Shown here: piece after piece, positions 42,340 through 44,236 of the stretch | How the letters are laid out: each line of letters starts with the position of its first letter | Numbering within the stretch: position 1 is the stretch's first letter | Origin: Thiotrichaceae bacterium | GTDB taxonomy: Bacteria > Pseudomonadota > Gammaproteobacteria > Thiotrichales > Thiotrichaceae | Reading direction: 5' to 3' | DNA length: 64,000 nucleotides | Assembly: GCA_023144895.1 (NCBI GenBank) | Contig: JAGLEV010000052.1 | Span: forward strand, 1-64,000 | Program-made: the position numbers and the translations under genes | The notes under the pieces: generated by a model | What the model was told of the DNA's origin: nothing | Seen by the model: the letters and a program-made list of their open reading frames with translations, nothing else | Databases searched by the model: none

Positions 42340-43734
42340 TTACATGATATCTAGCTTCTCAAGTACCTTGATAGTCAAGCCACCACGAGGAAGATCATTC
42401 TCAACCTGATATTTATTAACAGAGTTCAATGTGCCACGACCAATACTTCCATCAACAGGACCATTGTAGAATCCTGCTTCTTTTAGTGCTGATTGAATTT
42501 TCTTATTTAATTCTTTAGTCATGTTTGTCTTACAAAGCACTTGTCTCCACTCAAGACGCTCACTAGTAGTCTTCTTGCGCTTCTCAACAGTCTTTGTTGT
42601 TGCCGCAATTGAACTACGTGAAACTTCAGCAGCCGTTGCAAGCTTCTCTACTTTAATCGACTTAGACTTAGCTTCAACTTTAACTTCTTCAACACTTGCT
42701 GGCTCGTCTAATACTTTTTTCACAACAGTTTGAGTACGTGCAGCGATTTCTTTCAAACACACCTGATTACCTGTGTAAGTGCCTTCACCTTTATCGGTAC
42801 TCACTGTCCATGAGAATTGTGCATCTTCAGTCTTGGTACGCACTTGAACATTAGTGAATTCAGCTTCAACTTCAACGGTTTCTTGTGTCGCATCGCTTAC
42901 AAGCTTCTGTACACGGTGAGGCTTAGTGACTTCAGAAACTTCTGTTTCTTCAATTTGAGCCTTGCTCTTTAAGACACTTTTAACAAAGGTATCGTACTTA
43001 GCAGGAACTTGAACCAAACACATGATCTCGCCTGTTGAGTTATCGAGTCTCTCAACTAAGCCAGAACCTTTTTTCCATACCGCTTTAGCAGGCTCGATTT
43101 CAACTTTTTCTTCAACTCTTTCATAAATTGCATCGGTTAGCTTTTTAACGGTATGTGCTTCACGAGTAACGATACTCTCTTCAACAGATTCAAACTCAGC
43201 CTGTTTGATAACAATTTTTTCAGATTCTTCTTTAACCTTGATTTGCTTGTCTTTCATTTCAAACTTAGCAGGAGTGTAATACTCACGGAAACATTGACCA
43301 GGCTCAGCATCATCAATATCAATTCCACTCGTTTTAGCAGCCACTAGCTGTGTTGGACTCGTAGGAATACCACGACGACCTAAGGAGCTTACCCACTCAG
43401 TACGTGCTGCTTCAACTTCAATGACTTCTTTTTCATTTTTAAACTTAGCTGGAACAGCCTTAAGCACAGTAAAAGCTGGCTTAGTTTCGATTTCTTTTTC
43501 TGCTTTATCAAAAGCTGCTGGAATAATTTCTACAGTTTCTTTCTCAGGGTTAACAATAACTTCTTCCGAAAGTATTTCAAAAACGGCAGGAACAATAACT
43601 TTAGCGAAACATTGACCTGGCTTAGCATCAGGTAGAGTATTAGTTGCATCAACTGGCGAGCCTTCAGCATAAGATTGCATTGCCGTAGAGACTGCGATTG
43701 TTAATATTGCCACTGAGGCTAGACTTCTTTTCAT
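42340..43734 (-). CDS. Secreted four-repeat protein with C-terminal peptidoglycan-binding domain
   Basis: The 464-residue protein has a signal peptide (about 1-23, ending S-Y-A). It has four consecutive repeats, each opening with a Cys and closing with a Trp: C42-W114, C148-W220, C239-W309 and C326-W396 (72, 72, 70 and 70 residues apart). Each shows V/T-P-A-K/V-F/Y or a similar strand, a K/E/V-rich middle, and an E-V/I-E-A type end before the Trp. Another Cys is at 401. The tail (about 405-464) matches a PG_binding_1 domain: I-Q-S-A-L-K-E-A-G-F-Y-N-G-P-V-D-G-S-I-G. The repeats are not a family I know. It probably coats or bridges the cell wall. AGGATAAAG precedes the ATG. Confidence 0.85.
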   Translation of the reverse strand: MKRSLASVAILTIAVSTAMQSYAEGSPVDATNTLPDAKPGQCFAKVIVPAVFEILSEEVIVNPEKETVEIIPAAFDKAEKEIETKPAFTVLKAVPAKFKNEKEVIEVEAARTEWVSSLGRRGIPTSPTQLVAAKTSGIDIDDAEPGQCFREYYTPAKFEMKDKQIKVKEESEKIVIKQAEFESVEESIVTREAHTVKKLTDAIYERVEEKVEIEPAKAVWKKGSGLVERLDNSTGEIMCLVQVPAKYDTFVKSVLKSKAQIEETEVSEVTKPHRVQKLVSDATQETVEVEAEFTNVQVRTKTEDAQFSWTVSTDKGEGTYTGNQVCLKEIAARTQTVVKKVLDEPASVEEVKVEAKSKSIKVEKLATAAEVSRSSIAATTKTVEKRKKTTSERLEWRQVLCKTNMTKELNKKIQSALKEAGFYNGPVDGSIGRGTLNSVNKYQVENDLPRGGLTIKVLEKLDIM

Positions 43735-44236
43735 ATTCTTTATCCTAAATAACTTTCTATAGTTAGTTTTAAAAGGGTGGGAGTTTCTTCCTCTATCTGC
43801 CTAGACAGAGACGCTATGATGAAACTCCAATCATTTCCGACAATGAAATTCCCCGTTTTGATTTAATGGAGTGAGTTACTATTAGTTGCTATTAATTTTC
43901 TAGTGTAAAATAGTAATCTCTTTTTCTAAAGGTTCACCCGATGTAAGACGTAATAAGGGCTCTATAAGACACTCAACACTCTAACTCTATTAGAGTCTAA
44001 CTTAGCCCAACGAGCATGGAGTTGATCTAAATAAGAAAAGTAACAATAACTAAAAACACAACATCAATAGTACAATTGAGTGGAGATTTCAATTTATATA
44101 CTTTATTGGCAACTATTGAGGTTTGCCAATAAAATATTCATCGTATTTGTGTGATATTATAAATACTTATTTCTAGTTAACAAGCTTTGTCTGCAGATAG
44201 TATAAACATCAGACAGTTTTGCTAATGAAACCCCAC
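43735..44236. other. 502-base intergenic region with structured leader
   Basis: No coding frame is seen. It contains the two-tier hairpin at 43780-43828 and a small inverted repeat ACTCT-ATT-AGAGT at 43984-43996. The nuoN transcript should end in it, but no clear terminator was found near its stop. Confidence 0.5.
43780..43828 (-). ncRNA. Two-tier hairpin in the leader of the repeat-protein gene
   Basis: In minus-strand RNA, GGAGTTTC (43828-43821) pairs with GAAACTCC (43787-43780), and inside it CTCTGTCT (43810-43803) pairs with AGATAGAG (43798-43791) around a 4-base loop. One inner pair is G-U only in the minus-strand RNA, which favours that strand as the transcribed one. It lies about 45 bases upstream of the start codon. 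It may be a 5' UTR control element or the terminator of the nuo operon, since CCCACCCTTTT follows. Confidence 0.4.

Follow-up and report, generated by a model that had tools for sequence, protein, structure and literature searches.

Genomic context and domain organization

The window analysed here is a stretch of 64,000 nucleotides from a Thiotrichaceae bacterium. On its minus strand lies a standalone gene, a single open reading frame coding for a protein of 464 residues, to which we assigned the following features:

42340..43734, minus strand: whole gene, 464 amino acids, standalone, single open reading frame
43666..43734, minus strand: signal peptide, residues 1-23, signal peptidase I type by inspection (SYA before and EG after the cleavage site), without lipobox
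43393..43611, minus strand: array A1, the base-side part of arm A, with the C42 cap, repeats from 49, 72 and 95, and the W114 cap
43294..43392, minus strand: joint linker of arm A, residues 115-147
43075..43293, minus strand: array A2, the tip-side part of arm A, with the C148 cap, repeats from 155, 178 and 201, and the W220 cap
43018..43077, minus strand: putative hairpin tip loop, residues 220-239, WKKGSGLVERLDNSTGEIMC, marked by its conservation
42808..43020, minus strand: array B1, with the C239 cap, repeats from 244, 267 and 290, and the W309 cap; predicted antiparallel partner of A2
42760..42807, minus strand: joint linker of arm B, residues 310-325
42547..42759, minus strand: array B2, with the C326 cap, repeats from 331, 354 and 377, and the W396 cap; predicted antiparallel partner of A1
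42532..42534, minus strand: C401, the fifth invariant Cys, at the base; putative disulfide partner of C42
42388..42504, minus strand: PG_binding_1 core, residues 411-449, within a three-helix domain of about residues 400-463

The gene converges on a uvrD/rep-type helicase gene, and nuoN ends about 500 nt upstream. Across the neighbourhoods of 80 named relatives, no conserved gene partner was found, only taxon-specific syntenies with nuo, tgt, uvrD, and secG, and the neighbouring genes point to no pathway for the protein. The gap between nuoN and the gene (43735-44236) is unusually long (about 500 nt) and AT-rich. A short inverted-repeat-like stretch, GTTTCATCATAGCGTCTCTGTCTAGGCAGATAGAGGAAGAAAC, lies on this nuoN side, about 45-90 nt upstream of the gene start. 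Rfam gave nothing real around the gene, this gap included.

Export signal and wall-binding domain

An earlier note on this locus had described the protein as exported and as ending in a peptidoglycan-binding domain, and both descriptions agree with our results. The N-terminus carries a signal peptide, MKRSLASVAILTIAVSTAMQSYA followed by EG, which is of the signal peptidase I type by inspection, and these features suggest that the protein is exported, by Sec in the mechanism proposed below. Lipoprotein status was rejected, as there is no lipobox and no Cys before residue 42. A lipobox is present in several relatives (for example, L085, L098, L100, L101, L107, and L110), and many relatives combine a lipobox with a coiled-coil-like N-terminus.

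At the other end, residues 411-449 match PG_binding_1 (PF01471) with 24.7 bits against a gathering cut-off of 23 (Pfam, E 2.7e-5), and the corresponding scores in relatives range from 32 to 61 bits. The C-terminal helices of the AF2 model (407-419, 433-445, and 455-460) form the three-helix fold of PG_binding_1, and this domain of the model gave a VIA Z of 9.3 to SltB3 (5ao8; rmsd 1.8, 61 aligned) and of 9.1 to SleB (6tci). By homology and predicted fold, it is an ordinary wall-binding domain, predicted to bind peptidoglycan.

A 23-residue repeat unit

The region between the signal peptide and the wall-binding domain had been divided into four similar modules, C42-W114, C148-W220, C239-W309, and C326-W396, explained by tandem duplication of an undescribed domain. 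These positions are right, and the four module Cys were correctly listed, but a fifth invariant one, C401, was missed. The five Cys (42, 148, 239, 326, and 401) and four Trp (114, 220, 309, and 396) are essentially invariant among 54 homologues, 53 of which carry five Cys, no more and no fewer, from C42 onward.

Autocorrelation of the family profile (54 sequences) singles out a lag of 23 as by far the best (z 6.1). Twelve copies of a 23-residue repeat start at 49, 72, and 95; 155, 178, and 201; 244, 267, and 290; and 331, 354, and 377. The consensus is PAKYKTVEERVLVKPASEKW plus three residues, or PAxYxTVxExVLVKxA... in motif form, and each Cys-to-Trp module consists of a Cys cap, three such repeats, and a Trp cap. 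Duplication is supported, but its unit of 23 residues, present three times per module, had escaped notice.

The self-alignment suggested in the earlier note was informative in part. With the single sequence, modules 1 and 2 score 143 (shuffles 33+/-6) and modules 3 and 4 score 104 (36+/-6), both significant, whereas the cross pairs are weak or absent (P 0.004 to 0.7). In profile-profile comparison, for which column-shuffled controls score 6-18, all six pairs are significant with E 1e-13 or better: 4e-31 for modules 1 and 2, 5e-33 for modules 3 and 4, and 1e-13 to 2e-15 for the cross pairs. The four modules are indeed similar, as had been claimed. The repeat was also rightly called undescribed: the repeat region has no match to a curated family in Pfam, NCBIfam, PHROGs, or PDB sequences, so that, within the libraries searched, the repeat family is undescribed and the wall-binding domain is the ordinary part of the protein.

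Spacing rule and matched repeat counts

The length from Cys to Trp is 23n+3 or 23n+1 in 400 of 418 stretches from 123 proteins, with n = 2, 3, 4, 6, 8, or 10. The first spacing defines type A arrays, in which the first repeat begins 7 residues after the Cys, and the second defines type B arrays, in which it begins 5 residues after. Relatives have either A then B or A,A,B,B, never ABAB, and the order in the window protein is A-A-B-B. The number of repeats is nearly always equal in A and B (A2B2, A3B3, A4B4, A6B6, A7B7, A8B8, and A3A3B3B3). Orthologues with n = 3 dominate these counts, so that the other n classes carry the independent weight of the equal-count rule; for some proteins, the automatic repeat counter leaves uncertain or truncated counts. 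The clear exception is A10B6 in L150 (G565:C2:242200-245000). Its ten A repeats are mostly near-identical (PAVYGYRSKRVxxKRGWxETRTK), and the A10 array is perhaps a recent expansion.

Other proteins were seen alongside these. An A4B4 protein adjoins L150. The genome of the window encodes a paralogue with about eight repeats per arm (A8B8; L003:676-2115, minus strand, contig C26:50384-51550, minus strand, of G000), in which no wall-binding domain was detected. Open reading frames of 146-194 residues (L198-L205) code for short exported proteins with CxxC pairs flanking about three 23-residue repeats, without Trp caps. They do not simply match the A/B register, and a reading of the L198-type proteins as 1.5 units per arm was dropped because the register is not kept.

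Antiparallel pairing of the two arms

Covariation was computed as APC-corrected mutual information averaged along each parallel and antiparallel diagonal, on alignments of modest depth (Neff about 27-48; 78-79 orthologues and Neff 48 for the four-array set). In the AABB set, the six strongest diagonals are all antiparallel and connect A2 with B1 (i+j 458-460) and A1 with B2 (i+j 439-441). Counted from the Cys, both ladders share register 71-73 and together fill the top six of 1504 places, with z 7.9 and 6.6 and the next at 3.8. For a separate A4B4 set, a register of 95-96 was predicted before the run, and 96 (z 5.5) and 95 (z 4.3) came out as ranks 1 and 2. The raw A3B3 set gave no A-B ladder; once a one-residue insertion was removed, register 73 was at the top (4.8), with parallel 44 close (4.5). 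Shuffling the partner arms abolished the A-B signal. As shown by covariation, and not drawn from the AF2 model, the antiparallel partners are modules 1 and 4 on the one hand and modules 2 and 3 on the other, and from such pairing the equal counts and the AABB order follow.

The charges point to the same register. In the family, the A arms are acidic (-2.7 and -3.1) and the B arms basic (+3.7 and +6.3) at matching strand positions, and charge products reach their most negative values at registers 72-74 and 95-97, in agreement with covariation. Array B1 of the window protein is itself acidic (-4), which makes charge complementarity a family trend and not a rule.

At the predicted register, 12-residue strands lie opposite 12-residue strands and 7 opposite 7, so that the Pro-Ala kinks of both arms coincide. 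Each of the four module Cys has a Trp of the partner arm across from it: W114 faces C326 and W220 faces C239, while C148 and W309, like C42 and W396, are no more than two or three residues from facing each other. All five minimal relatives with two repeats (L160 and L270-L273, two of which are near-identical) have D-G or N-G exactly at the predicted centre of the hairpin. L115, an A7B7 protein through loss of the joint caps from both arms, has two extra Cys, at 195 and 366, that come within one or two residues of lying opposite one another.

The earlier view of each module as a self-contained domain of 70-72 residues is not supported, given a unit of 23 residues, two module types ordered A,A,B,B, and covariation that crosses the arms from 1 to 4 and from 2 to 3. 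A related reading has four independent tandem domains, each Cys-to-Trp module being a seven-stranded beta-meander, and the domains displaying ligands or being disulfide-paired between modules. The full-chain AF2 model (mean pLDDT 73, pTM 0.40) has strands of 12 and 7 residues in alternation, separated by two-residue breaks, that is, short-long-short strands in each module, which together with the significant similarity of the modules would suit such meanders. However, covariation of local hairpins within an arm is not prominent (2.5 at best, where the A-B ladders reach 7.9 and 6.6), and one module modelled alone by AF2 has no secondary structure, perhaps simply because its alignment was shallow. 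Independent domains would also leave n_A = n_B and the AABB order unexplained, and the number of repeats per module ranges from 2 to 10. We consider this reading unlikely.

The arms could also pair between two molecules, as an antiparallel dimer or a longer fibre. Covariation is blind to whether contacts lie within or between molecules, and the odd number of conserved Cys leaves one for a cross-link. Against this, the conserved loop between A and B is short (19 residues from W220 to C239), its closing W and C face each other where the register would place them, and a tight D-G or N-G turn joins both units in the minimal members. Both the short loop and these turns speak for pairing inside a single chain, and a pairing between chains seems distinctly improbable.

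The putative tip loop and the cysteines

No other 20-residue window of the protein is as conserved as the tip loop (220-239), at 3.67 bits per column; set against the wall-binding domain, the values are 3.59 for the tip and 2.85 for the domain. Its consensus, WKKGxGPIxKIDNxTGEIMC, is retained in relatives of differing stalk length and offers a conserved site for a partner search.

Losses and gains of Cys in relatives follow two patterns. In L148, L183, and L196, the tip Cys is absent and both the A Cys and the terminal Cys are retained. In L152, L153, L159, and L182, the terminal Cys is absent, and an extra Cys precedes the A Cys by 4 or 5 residues. On these patterns, our best guess is a disulfide between C42 and C401 at the base, which would join both ends of the repeat region; if these two are bonded, the tip cysteine C239 would be free. 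The earlier note, in which the Cys at module starts could pair between modules or carry a ligand, did not propose this bond. An envelope sensor or redox switch, in which oxidation or a ligand is sensed at C239 and the Cys-Trp pairs and relayed along the stalk to the wall-bound end, could draw on the five invariant Cys, an odd number, and on the tip being the most conserved stretch, but it is very unlikely with the tip Cys missing from three relatives and with neither a signalling domain nor a conserved neighbour found.

Proposed stalk model

The repeat unit, the spacing rule, the equal counts, the antiparallel pairing with its register, the conservation of the tip, the homology and predicted fold of the wall-binding domain, and the export features of the sequence are the observations from which we propose an exported, wall-anchored stalk, in which arms A and B form one giant kinked antiparallel two-stranded beta-hairpin with a conserved tip. 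We put the probability of this reading at roughly two in three; the three-dimensional shape of the hairpin is what we infer from the pairing.

After export by Sec, the C-terminal domain would anchor the protein to peptidoglycan. Arm A (42-220) and arm B (239-396) would then zip antiparallel, unit by unit, into the two-stranded hairpin, with both ends of every paired segment marked by a Cys on one arm across from a Trp on the other. The base would be formed by C42 beside C401, probably disulfide-bonded and adjoining the peptidoglycan-binding domain, and the far end by the conserved tip loop. By simple arithmetic (72 residues at about 3.3 angstrom), a fully extended segment could reach about 24 nm. 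Such a stalk may keep the wall and a partner-binding tip a fixed distance apart, and, where a relative has a lipobox and a coiled-coil-like N-terminus, it may tether the outer membrane to the wall. As the arms must match, stalk length would evolve one unit at a time, on both arms together.

If this is correct, the protein represents an unannotated repeat family in which two arrays of one chain keep equal counts through mutual pairing, and an example of a spacer with its length set by paired repeats. The covariation register could serve as a starting model for a region that is weak in AF2. The family may, with about even balance in our judgement, constitute an undescribed fold class: a length-tunable 'protein duplex' of acidic A and basic B 23-residue arrays zipped antiparallel in one chain, with facing Cys-Trp caps, wall-anchored, with a conserved binding tip, and widespread in Pseudomonadota.

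Relation to known systems

Foldseek gave no match with E <= 0.001 for the repeat region; since the AF2 model is weak there, this absence is no evidence of a new fold. Literature searches on the motif, on a 23-residue repeat with peptidoglycan, and on the stalk gave nothing on the repeat family. The sole match for '23-residue repeat' concerns leucine-rich repeats and was set aside.

Several known systems share one feature or another with the proposed stalk. SasG/Aap G5-E rods of staphylococci are wall-anchored and consist of beta repeats whose number sets their length, but they are one chain of single-layer domains and not two paired arms, and they are Gram-positive and sortase anchored. The pore stems of aerolysin, lysenin, and anthrax PA are very long two-stranded hairpins and were among the top, non-significant Foldseek matches (E 0.03-0.1). 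The likeness is one of shape only, with no sequence similarity, no Cys/Trp-capped repeat, and no sign of pore formation in the window protein. PG_binding_1 proteins (the SleB N-terminal domain, SltB2/SltB3, and phiKZ gp144) have the three-helix wall-binding domain in common with it; in contrast to them, the window protein joins this domain to no catalytic domain, and its remainder is the 23-residue repeat hairpin. The His-Xaa-Ser repeat protein HxsA (TIGR03979) resembles it over the base and the peptidoglycan-binding domain (residues 366-461, 38.7 bits). This match spans only the C-terminal half of the model and leaves the His-Xaa-Ser part unmatched, and HxsA membership was rejected against the NCBIfam cut-off of 121.65. 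Pal, Lpp, and OmpA-family lipoproteins (P. aeruginosa PG-binding anchor, PMC7947798) are likewise envelope proteins with a peptidoglycan-binding end. However, these tethers have another peptidoglycan-binding domain and another spacer, whereas the window protein is of the signal peptidase I type and has no lipobox.

Distribution

No relative was found in viral contigs, and collections of plasmids and phages gave matches to the wall-binding domain only; as far as those collections show, the gene is not mobile-element cargo. Of the 274 genomes sampled from the host's class, 43 have family matches, a count that includes matches to the peptidoglycan-binding domain only, and the family also reaches further classes in the phylum. 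By its named relatives, Leucothrix and Cocleimonas, the genome falls close to Thiotrichaceae. Three close relatives (L045, L069, and L089) are filed under Aquificaceae, Campylobacterales, and Desulfobacula MAGs. The 56% identity of L045 to the Thiotrichaceae protein suggests misbinned contigs.
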